Shown here: positions 2,995 to 9,206 of the stretch, piece after piece
Position numbering within the stretch: position 1 is the first letter of the stretch
Layout of the letters: every line of letters begins with the position of its first letter
Assembly: GCA_018335295.1 (NCBI GenBank)
Contig: JAGXKI010000009.1
Location: 1-64,000 of the forward strand
Direction: 5' to 3'
From: a bacterium
GTDB taxonomy: Bacteria > Acidobacteriota > Aminicenantia > Aminicenantales > Aminicenantaceae
Length of the DNA: 64,000 nucleotides
Program-made: the position numbers and the translations under genes
Notes under the pieces: generated by a model
What the model was told of the DNA's origin: nothing
What the model saw: only the letters and a program-made list of their open reading frames with translations
The model's database searches: none

Positions 2995-3807
2995 TCAATC
3001 TTCAAACAGGTATTCTTTAAAGGAAAAGATCACACAGGCCAGAACCAGGAAAAATCCGGTAATCAGAAAGAGCATTCCCACCGCAGCTTGGGGAGAAGTG
3101 GGCTCCAAACGGAAAAGGAGAAAGGAAAATCTTCCTGTATTGAGGGAAGGAAGAAGAGACTTTAGATAATGGGCGATGGTGAATTTTTGGGTCGAACCCG
3201 GAAAATACTGAACCACATTTTCCCACCCAAACCCAAAAATCAAGCCTACCATGACCGATTTTTTTAAAAACGTGCCCAAAAATGTAAAAAAAGAGGCATA
3301 GGAGATAAGCCCTAAACACAGAACCGAGATGTCCCTGAGAAGAATTTTGTATAGGGAGACATCCCCGAGGTTTTCACAATTCAATATAAGAAAAGAAAAC
3401 ACCACCCCCGCCCCCGTCATCAACACAATCAAAACAGAATAAGCGGCGTATTTTCCGAGAATAATGGCTGGCTTGGGGACCGGGCGGGTAGTGAGGTAGG
3501 TAAGAGTTTTTCCCTCCAATTCATCCAAACAAACAGAGGAACCAAAAAAAAGAGCCAGAAGGAGGATCAGAAATTGGAGGTAAAACATCATGATGATATT
3601 AGAAAAGATATAAATTCCCTGAATATCGGTTCTTCCGTAAAAATACTGAGCAAATTTGATCACCAAGGCCATGACCACCGGAAGAAAACTGAGGAGGTAA
3701 AAAACTCGAGTCCTTTTGGTCCTCTTCCCTAAAGAAAAGGAAAAGGAAAACACATCCTTGACAGATTTCCAATAAAATGAAATTTGACCTTTTTTTATGT
3801 GAATCAT
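2995..3807 (-). CDS. ABC-2 type transporter permease
   Basis: This 270-residue protein has about six membrane helices. An N-terminal arm containing SLGKRTKRTRVFYLLSFLPVV precedes helix 1, and the motif DELEGKTLTYLTTRPVPK lies between helices 2 and 3. That 'D-x-x-x-x-K-T-x-x-x-L-x-T-R-P' segment is typical of ABC-2 permeases. It is the last gene of a four-gene minus-strand set (ATPase, permease, ATPase, permease) and starts one base after the ATPase stop codon at 3809. The partner ATPase is therefore the 3809-4735 product. The cargo is unknown; ABC-2 exporters move lipids, polysaccharides, drugs or act in envelope assembly. Confidence 0.85.
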   Translation of the reverse strand: MIHIKKGQISFYWKSVKDVFSFSFSLGKRTKRTRVFYLLSFLPVVMALVIKFAQYFYGRTDIQGIYIFSNIIMMFYLQFLILLLALFFGSSVCLDELEGKTLTYLTTRPVPKPAIILGKYAAYSVLIVLMTGAGVVFSFLILNCENLGDVSLYKILLRDISVLCLGLISYASFFTFLGTFLKKSVMVGLIFGFGWENVVQYFPGSTQKFTIAHYLKSLLPSLNTGRFSFLLFRLEPTSPQAAVGMLFLITGFFLVLACVIFSFKEYLFED

Positions 3808-3808
3808 T

Positions 3809-4735
3809 TCATTTACCTACCAAATAATCAAACACTGCCTGAAGATTGTCATCCGGTGAAGTGATTTCATCAATCTGGATGTTGTTTTTTACACTGAGAG
3901 AAGGAATTATAGAAAATAAACCGTCCCTGTTATTGGTCTCCACAATCAGAGAATCTTGACTCGTCCCAAAAGAAACTTTCAACACATAAGGCTTATGGAT
4001 AAATTCGGAGGCCATCTTCCGGGGATGGCTGCACCTTATAGAAATCTTATGGGGATGGGTTTCCAACAAATCTCTTATGTAATGAATATCTCCTTGAGCG
4101 AAAATTTTTCCTTGATGGATAAGGATGATCTGCTGGGTCAAAGCCTCAATCTCAGGAAGAACATGACTGGATACAAGCACGGTTTTTTCTTTCTGTCTGT
4201 AGGATTTAATAAGGCTTATGAGTTTTCTTTTTCCCAGAGGATCAAGACCGTTGAGAGGCTCATCCAGGATAAGAACCTCAGGATTATGAGCAATGGCCTG
4301 GGCAAACTTGAGCCTTTGTCTCATCCCTTGACTGTAAGATCTGATAACCCTGTGCTTGTCTTCAACCAACTCCACAATGTCCAAAGCCTTCTCAGCCAGA
4401 GATTCAATTTGAGATGAAGAAAAATGCCCCAGCTTCAAAAGTCCGGTAAGATACTGCCAACCGGTCATCTCTTCATAGAATGAATCCCGCTCGGGACAGT
4501 AACCGATTCGAGCCAAAAGGGGATAATTATTCCGGATCCTTTCTCCCAGGAGGGAGACGGATCCTATGCTGGGTTTAATCTGTCCGGTTATAAGACTTAA
4601 AAGTGTAGATTTTCCGGCTCCGTTGGGACCCAGCAGTCCGGTTATCCCTGAGGATATCTGTAAAAAAACATCACTCAGTCCCAAAACATTCCCGTACCAT
4701 TTGGACAGGTTTTTCGTTTCGATGACCGGATTCAT
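3809..4735 (-). CDS. ABC transporter ATP-binding protein
   Basis: The start is set at 4735 (MNPVIETKNLSKWYGN): it is the usual beginning for this family and its ATG overlaps the upstream permease stop in an ATGA arrangement. An upstream ATG-bearing extension to 4825 would lie inside the permease gene. Walker A is GPNGAGKST (about residues 38-46), the signature YSQGMRQRLKFAQ (about 134-146) and Walker B VLILDEPLNGLDP (about 155-167). A C-terminal beta-rich extension follows, as in exporters of the CcmA/NatA type. The 308-residue subunit should hydrolyse ATP to drive the permease encoded immediately downstream. Confidence 0.9.
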   Translation of the reverse strand: MNPVIETKNLSKWYGNVLGLSDVFLQISSGITGLLGPNGAGKSTLLSLITGQIKPSIGSVSLLGERIRNNYPLLARIGYCPERDSFYEEMTGWQYLTGLLKLGHFSSSQIESLAEKALDIVELVEDKHRVIRSYSQGMRQRLKFAQAIAHNPEVLILDEPLNGLDPLGKRKLISLIKSYRQKEKTVLVSSHVLPEIEALTQQIILIHQGKIFAQGDIHYIRDLLETHPHKISIRCSHPRKMASEFIHKPYVLKVSFGTSQDSLIVETNNRDGLFSIIPSLSVKNNIQIDEITSPDDNLQAVFDYLVGK

Positions 4736-5601
4736 TTTATGATTCGAACTCCTTGTACCTTCTTTCTTAAAACCAGGGCCGATAACACACATACCCCCAA
4801 CAGAACCAACAGAGAAAACACCCAACTGATTTCATAGGGAGTTTTTTGCTGGAAAAATAAGGCTCCCACTTGCTGGAGATTGGACTTTATGGAGAGAAGG
4901 GAAAAATAGTGACTGTGGAATATCCCTTTAAAGATCCCGAATAAAATATCTGAAAAAAAGTAAAAGCCCAAGATGAGGACCGCCACATACCTCCTGTTGG
5001 GGCTCAGAGAGGAAAGAAAGAGAGCATAAAAAGAGAAAAAAACAGTGAGTAAAAGGGAATAACCGATGATGGAGAGAGGAAGCCAAGGATAAGTAGAAAA
5101 AAATTTAAAACTCCCGGAAAAAATCAGCTTCATCAGGAAAAGAACCAAAGAAGGGATCATGGTGAGGATGAATAAAAAGAAGACAATAACCGAAGATTTT
5201 CCCATAAAATAATCTCTTTTTTTCAGGGGACGGGAAAAGTACAGTTGAAGAGAGTTATGCCTGAGGTCATCGGATATCAGCCCGGACGCAGCGAAAACCA
5301 GGATCAAAATGATCATAAAATATAAAAAATCTCCAGTAAGGTAGGACTTGAAGTAATTAGGATTGATTTGGAGAAAAGAAACAGATTCCTGCACCATAAA
5401 CCGAAATTCTTCCATCCTTTCGGAAACATAAATTCCCACTAAATAAGCCAGGGCTGGAGATAAGGAAAGAAAGAAGAAAAACTTAAAAAATTTTTTCTTG
5501 AAGGTCAACCGAATCCCCAAGCGGGAGATGGGCCACCAGGGAAACCGGGACTCTTTCAATTTTCCATCCCAATGAGTGTACCCTCTTTCCTTTATAGACA
5601 T
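4732..5601 (-). CDS. ABC-2 type transporter permease
   Basis: The 289-residue protein starts with SIKERGYTHWDGKLKESRFPWW, a soluble arm followed by a helix, and then about six membrane segments. A central motif ISDDLRHNSLQLYFSRPLKKRDYF carries the usual ABC-2 permease pattern after helix 2. The ATG at 5601 overlaps the stop of the preceding ATPase gene (TGATG), which indicates translational coupling; a TTG at 5604 is an alternative. The stop overlaps the ATG of the next ATPase at 4735. With the 5601-6512 ATPase it forms the first of two adjacent exporter modules that may work as one heteromeric complex. Confidence 0.85.
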   Translation of the reverse strand: MSIKERGYTHWDGKLKESRFPWWPISRLGIRLTFKKKFFKFFFFLSLSPALAYLVGIYVSERMEEFRFMVQESVSFLQINPNYFKSYLTGDFLYFMIILILVFAASGLISDDLRHNSLQLYFSRPLKKRDYFMGKSSVIVFFLFILTMIPSLVLFLMKLIFSGSFKFFSTYPWLPLSIIGYSLLLTVFFSFYALFLSSLSPNRRYVAVLILGFYFFSDILFGIFKGIFHSHYFSLLSIKSNLQQVGALFFQQKTPYEISWVFSLLVLLGVCVLSALVLRKKVQGVRIIK

Positions 5602-6512
5602 CAATCCACTCCTACCACCTTGGCAAACAAATCCTCAAGCCTGGTTTGACTTTTGACAAAATGTCTTATTTGAACCCCTTCTTCGGCGGCAATCTTAAAA
5701 ATCTCTTGATGGCTTTTTCCGGCAGACATGTACACTTTTATCAGCCCTTCCTCGGTTTCTTCTATCCGGCAGTCGATCTCCTTCAGTCTCTGCCAAAATT
5801 GAGGGTTGGATTCCTTGACTTTCAGCTCATAAAGACGGTAATGGAGCTGCTTCAGATTTGCCATCTCTCCCTGGGCGGCCAGTTGGCCTCGGTTCAAAAT
5901 CACCACATAAGAACAAACCTCTTCGATATCGGAAAGAATATGAGAAGAAATCAAAGTCTGAATATTCTTTTCTGTAGAAATTTCCTTAATGAGCTTTAAA
6001 ATTTCTTTTCTCCCTCCAGGATCCAATCCGCTGGTGGGTTCGTCTAAAAAAATAAGCCTGGGATCATGGACGAGAGCTTGAGCCAGTTTCAACCTCTGCT
6101 TCATCCCCCCCGAATAAGTTTCGAGGTTTCGGTAGCGGCTCTCCTCTAACCCCACATAAAACAAAACCTCATGAGCTCTTTTTATGGCTTCCTGTTTGGG
6201 CATTCCCGAGAGTTCGGCCATAAACGAGGTGAAAGTGACGGCATCCATTCCCGGAATGATACAGTCATTTTCAGGCATATAGCCGACAAAACGGCGGATC
6301 ATAAACTGATTGTTCTGAATATCATAACCAAGCACCTTTCCCTCTCCTTTATCGGGAGAGAGAAATCCCAACAGGATACGGAGAAGAGTGCTTTTTCCGG
6401 CTCCATTGGGCCCCAAAAGGCCCACAGCTCCTGGAGGAAGATGAAGGCTTACCCCCTTCAAGGCTTGCAGGGATCCATAACTGTAGGAGAGATCTTCAAC
6501 TTGAACACTCAT
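5601..6512 (-). CDS. ABC transporter ATP-binding protein
   Basis: The product is 303 residues from the ATG at 6512 (MSVQVEDLSYSYGSLQ); an in-frame ATG at 6533 has no ribosome site, while AGAGG precedes 6512. Walker A is GPNGAGKST (about residues 34-42), the signature YSGGMKQRLKLAQ and Walker B LIFLDEPTSGLDPGG. The C-terminal 90 residues form the extra domain typical of ABC-2 exporter ATPases. It is first in the four-gene exporter set, with overlapping codons to the permease at 5601. The cargo is unknown. The two modules in this block are of different sequence, not a recent duplication. Confidence 0.9.
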   Translation of the reverse strand: MSVQVEDLSYSYGSLQALKGVSLHLPPGAVGLLGPNGAGKSTLLRILLGFLSPDKGEGKVLGYDIQNNQFMIRRFVGYMPENDCIIPGMDAVTFTSFMAELSGMPKQEAIKRAHEVLFYVGLEESRYRNLETYSGGMKQRLKLAQALVHDPRLIFLDEPTSGLDPGGRKEILKLIKEISTEKNIQTLISSHILSDIEEVCSYVVILNRGQLAAQGEMANLKQLHYRLYELKVKESNPQFWQRLKEIDCRIEETEEGLIKVYMSAGKSHQEIFKIAAEEGVQIRHFVKSQTRLEDLFAKVVGVD

Positions 6513-6588
6513 TTTCTCGGTGCCTCTTTCCATTAATACGAACAGAACCTCAAAAAGTTCCCTTCATAGCTCCCAAGGGCATCTTTTC

Positions 6589-8178
6589 CTAAGTTTTCTC
6601 ACCCCCCAGTTTGAAAAGAGTCCCTTTTCCATACACTAAAGCCTGGTAGGCTTTCTTTACCCGGTCCCAATTTTCTTCTCTATCCAGAGCCCAATATCTT
6701 CCCATCACTGTGACCACTTGTCCCAACGAAAGTTCCCGGCATTTCTTTTCGATCTTGGATATGTAATTGGCTCCACTCTCCGGCTTCTCCCCTCTTCTTC
6801 CTATGAGAGAATGGATGAATACATTCTCCATCCCTCTTTTTTGGGCCATTTGAAGAAGGGCAAACAGATGGCGAATGGTTCCGTGGGAGCTGTAATGAGA
6901 AACGATTCCCAGAAGATGCAGGGCTTTCTGGTTTTGGAGACACGAATCCATGGCCCAGATAAAAGCAGGGTTTGAAAAGAAACTTCCATCCTGAACGGCC
7001 TTATCGATTTTAACTCGGTCAAGGAGAATCCTTCTTCCTGCTCCCAAATGAAGATGCCCTGCTTCCGAATTTCCTACCGTATCCGCGGGCATACCCACAG
7101 CTTCCCCTGAAGCCTGAAGGGAGGCATGGGGAAATCGAGACCATAATTTTTCAAAAGAGGGAGTTTTCCCTTCCTTAATGAGGTTTCCCTGAGAGGCTTC
7201 TCTCAATCCCCAACCGTCAAGAATGAGAAGAAGAACTTTGGGGCAGGGCTCGGAAAATGAATCCGGAAGTAAACTTTGGCCTTTCATTTCAGGAGGAGAT
7301 TCCACACCTAAAAGATGAAGAATGGTGGGGGCTACATCACTCAGCTCTCCTTTTTTCCTTATCTCCCTCCTCTCTTTTTCACCAGAGGAAAAATCAGCCA
7401 AGATAAAGGGAACTGGATTTTTGGTGTGGCCCGTATTTATGGTTCCATCCGGATATCTCCATTCCTCCACGGTTCCGTGGTCGGCTGTCACCACCAGAGT
7501 GATTCCTTCTTTCCGGCATTCCTCCACTATTTTTCCTAATTCCTTATCCACACTCTGAACAGCCTGAAGGACAGCTGATTTGTTTTCACTGTGACCCACC
7601 ACATCCACATTGGCTAAATTCGCTATTATGAGTGAATAATCGGGATTCTTTAATTGAGCGGCAATTTCTCTGGATACTTGAGCGGCACTCATTTGGGGCT
7701 TTTGAGTGTAGGAAGAGATTCCTGGGGGTGAAGGGATGATAATTCGGTCCTCTCCAGGAAAAGGTTTTTCTCTTTTCCCATTCATAAAGTATCCAATATG
7801 GACAGCCTTTTCGGATTCTGCCACTTTCAGAACCCCTAGAGATGCCCGGGACAGCACTTCGGGCAGAGTGCCCTGAACGACTTCTTCTGGAGGGAAAGCG
7901 ACTTTCACGTTGAGAGAGGAATGATACTCAATCATGGTGGCCATCCGGATATTCAAATTTTCTTTCACTGGAAAATGGGGAAAGTTTTTTTCGGTTAAAC
8001 TTCTTGTCAACTCAACTTCTCTTTCCCCTCTTATATCATAAAATACCACCGAATCTCCCTCTTGAATCCGGCCCACAGGCCGCCCTTGCCCATCCACAGC
8101 CACCAAGGGCTTTAAAGCCTCATCTTCTTCTCCATTCCGGTAAGCCTCTTTTATGGATTTAACCACTGGCGAATACAT
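6589..8178 (-). CDS. Circularly permuted cofactor-independent phosphoglycerate mutase-like enzyme
   Basis: This 529-residue protein contains every part of cofactor-independent phosphoglycerate mutase (GpmI, usually about 510 residues), but in swapped order. Residues 1-304 match the normal second half, from the transferase domain to the usual C-terminus (EMKGQSLL). Residues 314-529 match the normal first half, from VLLLILDGWG to AYQALVYGKG. In the family, interconversion of 3- and 2-phosphoglycerate uses two Mn ions and a phosphoserine. All these residues appear: D192, H196, D233, H234, H251, D321 and the nucleophile S371 in GNSEAGH. Substrate residues R50, R53, K124, H432, R462, R494 and R500 are also kept. 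The usual Asp after R462 (GRD) is Gly463, and the SDGGVHSH motif is SHYSSHGT, so the substrate could differ. AAGGAG lies 8 bases before the ATG and a good promoter lies upstream, so the permuted start looks genuine. Confidence 0.88.
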   Translation of the reverse strand: MYSPVVKSIKEAYRNGEEDEALKPLVAVDGQGRPVGRIQEGDSVVFYDIRGEREVELTRSLTEKNFPHFPVKENLNIRMATMIEYHSSLNVKVAFPPEEVVQGTLPEVLSRASLGVLKVAESEKAVHIGYFMNGKREKPFPGEDRIIIPSPPGISSYTQKPQMSAAQVSREIAAQLKNPDYSLIIANLANVDVVGHSENKSAVLQAVQSVDKELGKIVEECRKEGITLVVTADHGTVEEWRYPDGTINTGHTKNPVPFILADFSSGEKERREIRKKGELSDVAPTILHLLGVESPPEMKGQSLLPDSFSEPCPKVLLLILDGWGLREASQGNLIKEGKTPSFEKLWSRFPHASLQASGEAVGMPADTVGNSEAGHLHLGAGRRILLDRVKIDKAVQDGSFFSNPAFIWAMDSCLQNQKALHLLGIVSHYSSHGTIRHLFALLQMAQKRGMENVFIHSLIGRRGEKPESGANYISKIEKKCRELSLGQVVTVMGRYWALDREENWDRVKKAYQALVYGKGTLFKLGGEKT

Positions 8179-8186
8179 TTAAATAA

Positions 8187-8192
8187 CTCCTT
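8187..8192 (-). promoter_or_regulatory. Ribosome binding site of the permuted mutase gene
   Basis: AAGGAG on the minus strand lies 8 bases before the ATG at 8178. It decides the start codon and shows that translation begins at the new, permuted N-terminus. Confidence 0.8.
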
Positions 8193-8221
8193 TGCATGGG
8201 ATCCCTTAAAATTAATGCTCT

Positions 8222-8250
8222 ACTATAGAAACCCAGTCCAAGATTGTCAA
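8222..8250 (-). promoter_or_regulatory. Promoter of the permuted mutase gene
   Basis: On the minus strand TTGACA (8250-8245) and TATAGT (8227-8222) are separated by exactly 17 bases. This is one of the best sigma-70-type promoters in the window, so the mutase gene probably has its own transcript. Confidence 0.7.
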
Positions 8251-8290: not shown

Positions 8291-9193
8291 CTATTCCAGT
8301 TCAAGACTCAAAAGAGAAAACGGGTCCACCCTTTTTCCCCTTATTTTAACACCCCAGTGAAGATGAGGGCCGGTCACTCTTCCGGTCGCTCCTATTTCAC
8401 CGATAACCGAGCCCTTTTCCACAAACACACCTCTTTGAACTTTTATCTTGGAGAAATGGCAGTAAAGAGTGAACACCCCAAGACCATGGTCTAAGATTAC
8501 TGTCTTCCCAGCAAAATAAAGGTCATCAGCCAAAACCACTTTCCCCGAATTGGAAGCCTTGACCGGAGCTCCCAGCGGAGAGGATATATCCTCTCCGCTG
8601 TGAGATGAGCGGGGTTTATTGTTGAAGAACCTTCTTTCTCCAAAATTGTGGTGAGCCTCACCCTGTACGGGAACCATGAATGAGCCCTCCCCCAACCACT
8701 GGGAAGTATAGATGTCATAGACCACTTGGAGCAGCCGGGATTCCCTCCGAATTCTTTCCAAGACTTCCTGCGGGGGTGAAACAAATTTCTCCTTCACCCA
8801 TAATTTCTTCACCGGGAATTCTTTCTTTCGTACCAGGATTTCCTTTTTGATTTTCTTCAACTCTCCATTCTCATAAACAATAGAGACAGAGATGGGATAG
8901 GCTCCGGGCTCCAAATTCAGGTCAAGTCCGAGAAAAGCAATGAATGTTTCTCCCTTTCCAAACCCATATTTCTCTCCCTGAAAATGAATTTGGGCTTTCC
9001 GGATAGGTCTATCATGAGAAATGGTAAGTTTAAGAACTTCTCCGGGTTGAAGAGACCTATAATCGAGACGAACCCGGGGTTGGGACAATTCATCAAAAGA
9101 AGCCTCGGCGGAGAGAGCAAAAAGACTCAACCAACCGGACAACAACACAGCTGCTGCCATCATCCCTTTTCTATCCACCATCTTCTCCTTCAT
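8291..9193 (-). CDS. Secreted M23-family peptidase (LytM domain)
   Basis: The product (300 residues) has an N-terminal signal peptide ending near SAEA, a beta-rich domain (about residues 30-140), and a C-terminal M23 metallopeptidase domain. The zinc ligands are visible in HSGEDISSPLGAPV (H-x-x-x-D) and in GPHLHWGVK (H-x-H). A linker, YCHFSKIKVQRG, also matches the family. M23 enzymes cut peptide bridges in peptidoglycan, or act as non-enzymatic regulators of amidases; the intact zinc ligands favour an enzyme. The ATG at 9193 follows GGAGG by 6 bases; a TTG at 9196 and an ATG at 9181 are alternatives. It starts 13 bases after the D-aminoacylase stop, so the two are probably co-transcribed. 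Confidence 0.88.
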   Translation of the reverse strand: MKEKMVDRKGMMAAAVLLSGWLSLFALSAEASFDELSQPRVRLDYRSLQPGEVLKLTISHDRPIRKAQIHFQGEKYGFGKGETFIAFLGLDLNLEPGAYPISVSIVYENGELKKIKKEILVRKKEFPVKKLWVKEKFVSPPQEVLERIRRESRLLQVVYDIYTSQWLGEGSFMVPVQGEAHHNFGERRFFNNKPRSSHSGEDISSPLGAPVKASNSGKVVLADDLYFAGKTVILDHGLGVFTLYCHFSKIKVQRGVFVEKGSVIGEIGATGRVTGPHLHWGVKIRGKRVDPFSLLSLELE

Positions 9194-9206
9194 CAATTTC
9201 CTCCAA

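Follow-up and report, generated by a model that had tools for sequence, protein, structure and literature searches.

The locus considered here raises two linked questions: whether a gene that holds the whole of the cofactor-independent phosphoglycerate mutase (GpmI, or iPGM) family with its second half first is genuine, and, if so, whether its product is still a phosphoglycerate mutase. Such an order had been claimed, within one uninterrupted frame, in a preliminary description of the window (the whole stretch of 64,000 nt analyzed). Both the order and the frame are borne out. The open reading frame runs through 529 codons without interruption, and phmmer aligns its product with the iPGM of B. 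stearothermophilus (PDB 1ejj) as two segments that have changed places, residues 315–523 corresponding to iPGM 6–214 (199.7 bits) and residues 5–304 to iPGM 216–509 (206.8 bits). The match to NCBIfam TIGR01307 (493 bits, cut-off 330.65) also falls into two stretches, with residues 6–304 on model positions 214–504, and the score against PRK05434.1-5 stays below its cut-off (388 vs 862). In Pfam terms, Metalloenzyme precedes iPGM_N, which is the reverse of the usual arrangement. The N-to-C order of GpmI (phosphatase part 1, transferase, phosphatase part 2) is thus swapped, the family is complete except for a few terminal residues, and the ordinary GpmI proteins compared have the opposite segment order. 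The second segment, initially given as 314–529, runs from 315 to about 523, and the linker of about 10 residues lies between the halves as described; its sequence and length vary among relatives in an alignment of 52 permuted proteins. The ribosome-binding site and near-consensus promoter reported upstream are likewise present, the latter as a consensus match only, in a region where the number of promoter-like sites is not above chance. The circular permutation of GpmI is established (Table 1).

Table 1. Positions in the window of the permuted gene, its segments and motifs, and the flanking genes.
Feature	Position	Strand	Remarks
Second permease	2995–3807
Second ABC ATPase	3809–4825
ABC-2 permease	4732–5604		After first ATPase
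ABC transporter ATPase	5601–6533	(-)	Conserved downstream neighbor
Circularly permuted GpmI homolog	6589–8178	(-)	529 aa, single frame with stop
Residues 315–523	6610–7236	(-)	Ordinary GpmI 6–214 (phmmer vs 1ejj); phosphatase domain start, then first part of transferase domain
GRRG, residues 460–463	6790–6801	(-)	Replaces invariant DGRD; Bacillus Arg153 kept, Asp154 lost
YSSHG, residues 429–433	6880–6894	(-)	Replaces GGVHS round Bacillus His123; His432 kept
Ser371, nucleophile (Bacillus Ser62), in VGNSEAGH	7066–7068	(-)	S in 52/52 permuted and 15/15 ordinary proteins
Linker, residues 305–314 (about 10)	7237–7266	(-)	Old C-terminus to old N-terminus
Residues 1–304	7267–8178	(-)	Ordinary GpmI from about 216 to C-terminus (phmmer: 5–304 = 1ejj 216–509); remainder of transferase domain and bulk of phosphatase domain, in that order
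DHGTVEEW, residues 233–240	7459–7482	(-)	Metal-site Asp/His kept; ordinary DHGN..E.M
DIRGER, residues 48–53	8020–8037	(-)	Replaces NFRADR round Bacillus Arg261/Arg264; both Arg kept
Ribosome-binding site AAAGGAG	8187–8193	(-)	8 nt 5′ of ATG
Sigma-70-like promoter TTGACA-17-TATAGT	8222–8250	(-)	11/12 matches; consensus match only
M23 peptidase gene	8291–9196	(-)	Conserved upstream neighbor; functional membership not shown

That the arrangement is an assembly or mis-join artifact, or a decaying tandem duplicate, is extremely improbable, as dozens of separately assembled genomes share the order, two of them on single contigs (G012 and G024), no second GpmI copy or fragment occurs in the window or elsewhere in the genome, and the permuted gene is under purifying selection (dN/dS of about 0.14–0.25 in close permuted pairs). 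Since the same order is found as one frame in independent genomes, an assembly join near 7236–7266 is excluded, and a search of the window and genome for an un-permuted, frameshifted gpmI alongside found none. An assembly join or a pseudogene was therefore rejected. The host genome (2.54 Mb, 93% complete) holds one permuted copy and no ordinary GpmI.

In ordinary iPGM, the transferase domain is inserted in the phosphatase domain. Here the cut lies near ordinary residue 215, so that the phosphatase domain is uninterrupted and the two ends together make up the transferase domain. The permutation would thus reverse the ordinary layout, with the alkaline-phosphatase-like domain continuous and the transferase domain split. 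Ordinary iPGM has two hinge peptides (PMC5382265); this exchange of inserted and host domain offers a test of how its hinge-coupled closure depends on chain order. The permuted protein would be expected to fold as a two-domain iPGM-like enzyme: its AlphaFold model has a mean pLDDT of 88.2 and a pTM of 0.86, with loop 463–466 among the least confident parts, and the best Foldseek matches are the ligand-bound Bacillus iPGM structures 1ejj, 1o99, and 1o98 (302 columns, 1.8–2.0 Å, TM about 0.53). A TM of about 0.53 is expected, because a sequential comparison matches only one side of a permutation. Both domains of GpmI (TIGR01307; 1ejj/1o98, E. coli GpmM) are complete, with 38% identity over the Foldseek-aligned stretch. 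The two-domain fold is seen by prediction (AlphaFold and Foldseek) rather than in a solved structure, and an iPGM-like fold with phosphoserine chemistry is well supported.

Conservation in the active site was compared by column in two sets, one of 52 permuted and 15 ordinary proteins and the other of 29 permuted and 25 ordinary proteins. Retention of the metal ligands and Ser nucleophile had already been described, and D14, S64, D403, H407, D444, H445, and H463 (E. coli numbers) are indeed invariant in 52 of 52 permuted proteins. K336, H125, R155, R187, R193, R263, and R266 (E. coli numbers) are kept in all 29 permuted rows as well, and the metal ligands, Ser nucleophile, Lys336, and substrate-binding His and Arg are invariant in permuted and ordinary sets alike. 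In Bacillus iPGM, nine residues contact the substrate: S62, H123, R153, D154, R185, R191, R261, R264, and K336 (PMC3886921). Eight of these nine are kept in the permuted proteins, and the ninth, Asp154, is Gly in 52/52; at this position (E. coli D156) the smaller comparison has G in 29/29 permuted rows vs D in 25/25 ordinary ones. The surrounding DGRD is replaced by GRRG in all permuted proteins examined. Elsewhere, the permuted clade has DHGT..E.W vs DHGN..E.M in ordinary proteins, NFRADR is mostly DIRGER, and three permuted proteins carry F instead of Y in YSSHG. Altogether, 15 columns that ordinary proteins conserve carry a different, fixed residue throughout the permuted clade, and 13 of these 15 (D156 itself counted) lie at most three residues from catalytic residues, compared with 33 of the 86 columns that are retained (Fisher p = 6e-4). 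As a pattern in aligned sequences, this clustering suggests a change of specificity rather than drift.

We infer that the protein is, on balance probably, a GpmI-derived metal-dependent phosphotransferase or mutase with changed specificity. A small phosphorylated acid would donate its phosphate to Ser371 with the help of two divalent metals, and the phosphate would then be returned, or passed to an acceptor, in the transferase domain. The substrate pocket may have been remodeled through the change of DGRD to GRRG and of neighboring loops, and, with apgM presumably carrying out the glycolytic step, the natural substrate or acceptor may well be something other than simply 2- or 3-phosphoglycerate; these last two steps are the less certain ones. 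What argues against a changed specificity is that eight of the nine substrate contacts remain and that Glu464, which is invariant in the permuted proteins and directly follows the position of the lost Asp, within the poorly predicted loop 463–466, could assume the Asp role; the ordinary reaction might then still be possible. A phosphatase, in which the phosphoserine is formed, the phosphate is not returned, and a phosphorylated metabolite is hydrolyzed, would accord with a phosphatase half that keeps all metal and nucleophile residues and with changes that fall largely in transferase loops. Such an enzyme is nevertheless improbable, as the transferase domain keeps its Arg and His contacts without variation, an unexpected constraint if a bound acceptor were not needed.

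The permuted gene is found in 48 of 60 related genomes (Candidatus Aminicenantes, its own genome included), where the relatives are mostly one full-length frame with 58–67% identity. An exact-pattern scan of genome contigs, which requires one of six 8-residue matches and so lets relatives without one escape, returned 43 permuted loci, nearly all named Candidatus Aminicenantes; these are Aminicenantes-type loci only, with none of the 43 labeled as family f29 or f15. A genome named Clostridiales (L058, JARYMI010000003.1) has the Aminicenantes gene row together with the permuted gene and is probably a mislabeled bin. In a phylum-wide sample of 347 genomes, the permuted order occurs in 16, including members of f29 and f15; the other matches listed are half-length, and all 14 that were retrieved have the ordinary order. 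No unpermuted relative with an altered pocket, as an intermediate would be, was seen among these 347 genomes, in which no ordinary half scores above 229 bits. A search of viral contigs found no relative. GpmI occurs in 44 plasmid records; each of the 15 listed is matched in two pieces, and alignment of eight retrieved sequences showed the ordinary order in every case.

In a tree of 29 permuted proteins (rotated to ordinary order) and 25 ordinary ones, the permuted proteins form one side of a branch with support of 100/100. This clade covers Aminicenantia and the Acidobacteriota families f29 and f15, and its stem is long (1.2 changes per column, with bootstrapping not fully settled). Each of the two f15 genomes has a further mutase: G243 has an ordinary-order divergent GpmI alongside the permuted one, and G279 has apgM alongside the permuted gene. 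The ordinary-order protein of the former (L128, G243:C61) is very divergent, with an end branch of about 3 changes per column, and keeps DGRD. The best explanation is that a bacterial GpmI gene was permuted once, long ago, either in an Acidobacteriota ancestor or with later spread by transfer among these lineages. No published account of a permuted GpmI was found in the open-licence literature. Among enzymes of central metabolism, circular permutation is uncommon in nature.

The host genome also encodes an archaeal-type mutase (G000:C12:1316-2434) that exceeds the cut-off of both families concerned, scoring 582 bits against PRK04135 (cut-off 468) and 378 bits against apgM. The permuted protein was accordingly rejected as the sole mutase of the genome. 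The cofactor-dependent mutase GpmA is absent from the host genome, and two genomes of genus g21 are the only ones where it exceeds its cut-off. In these two (L078 and L079, from G030 and G020), GpmA scores about 400 bits where apgM is not detected, and G030 has a partial permuted gene too. In a class sample of 142 genomes including the host, with apgM counted at E ≤ 1e-20, apgM accompanies the permuted gene in 51 of 56 genomes (the host among them) and is found in 68 of the 77 that have neither form, and in none of the nine with ordinary GpmI (one GpmI being a fragment). Three unlisted apgM-less genomes were taken as G177, G448, and G449, all outside the match table. The presence of apgM differs between permuted and ordinary-GpmI genomes (p = 6e-8), the nine ordinary-GpmI genomes all belonging to family f9 and thus not being nine independent events. 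No effect of the permuted gene on the presence of apgM is seen (p = 0.78), and every permuted-gene genome at least 90% complete has apgM. The absence of apgM from all nine genomes with ordinary GpmI indicates that ordinary GpmI replaces apgM in this class, whereas the permuted gene coexists with apgM rather than standing in for other mutase types. Ordinary GpmI and apgM are mutually exclusive in the class, which amounts to a natural mutase swap, in family f9 (G177, G446–G449, G428, G429, and G431).

These observations bear on the possibility that the protein works as a redundant but true 2,3-bisphosphoglycerate-independent phosphoglycerate mutase, in which both the permutation and the altered motifs are neutral or tuning changes and Glu464 takes the place of Asp154. 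The TIGR01307 equivalog cut-off is passed, the metal ligands, Ser, Lys336, and Arg contacts are all kept, and the model matches substrate-bound iPGM. Moreover, Geobacter has both the bacterial and the archaeal iPGM (PMC2964296); since some bacteria keep two mutase types, the co-occurrence with apgM is no proof of a new function. We nevertheless consider this explanation rather unlikely, given that Asp154 and DGRD are invariantly lost, that the switched sites cluster at the pocket, that the stem branch is long, that the permuted protein, unlike ordinary GpmI in the class, does not replace apgM, and that it has been cleanly lost in genera keeping apgM. Two such genera, g26 and g30, are without the permuted gene and have apgM in nearly all genomes. 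The earlier naming of the protein as a phosphoglycerate mutase of permuted order thus stands as to the permutation, but the mutase label goes beyond the evidence, given the loss of Asp154, the replacement of DGRD by GRRG, the switches near the pocket, and the apgM gene in the genome.

With changed specificity as the preferred reading, the protein can be set against known systems. It shares with GpmI the metal ligands, Ser nucleophile, Lys336, His123, and all substrate Arg, and differs in having the order swapped (phosphatase domain continuous, transferase domain split), in lacking Asp154, in having GRRG for DGRD and further fixed pocket changes, and in not replacing apgM. With apgM (TIGR00306/PRK04135) it has in common the alkaline-phosphatase superfamily and metal-dependent phosphotransfer; apgM itself has about 400 residues in ordinary order and is a separate gene in the host genome, and the permuted protein, which reaches 34.1 bits against TIGR00306 (cut-off 320) through the metal core only, falls outside that family. 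PhpG-type transferases (CMP-5′-phosphonoformate–3-phosphoglycerate transferase, NF038358) are, by family name only, an earlier case in the superfamily of a mutase-like scaffold with a different reaction. Unlike the permuted protein, they are without permutation, and the match to NF038358 (19.5 bits, cut-off 545) again covers the metal core only. A family model score sums segments regardless of their order, so that the protein will be annotated automatically as GpmI, and glycolysis could be assigned to the wrong gene when the metabolism of Aminicenantes is reconstructed. Within the alkaline-phosphatase superfamily, the protein is a concrete candidate for an enzyme of new specificity. The broader proposal, that permutation and pocket remodeling on the same long branch gave rise to a new phosphotransferase, class-wide in uncultured bacteria and annotated by models as phosphoglycerate mutase, has in our estimate about an even chance of being correct.

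Within the order, the usual site of the gene is between the M23 peptidase and the double ABC ATPase/ABC-2 permease set, with kdtA, PAP2 phosphatase, and amidohydrolase genes preceding in the upstream row. Where the gene is absent, in g30 and g26, the M23 and ABC genes are still in place, and the interval between them holds an S9 peptidase, which is also present in genomes bearing the permuted gene, or no other conserved gene. At five loci (L138–L142, from G057, G054, G041, G059, and G051), a clean loss of the permuted gene leaves both neighbors in place. In families f10, f29, and f15, outside the order, the neighbors are different. As the neighbors are kept without the gene and differ outside the order, the context names no substrate, and coupling to the ABC exporter or to the M23 peptidase is not supported. 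The M23 gene lies upstream of the permuted gene here, and GpmI adjoins M23 in Proteobacteria too, as in E. coli (gpmM-envC, L107) and Ruegeria (gpmI-M23, L135), possibly by coincidence.
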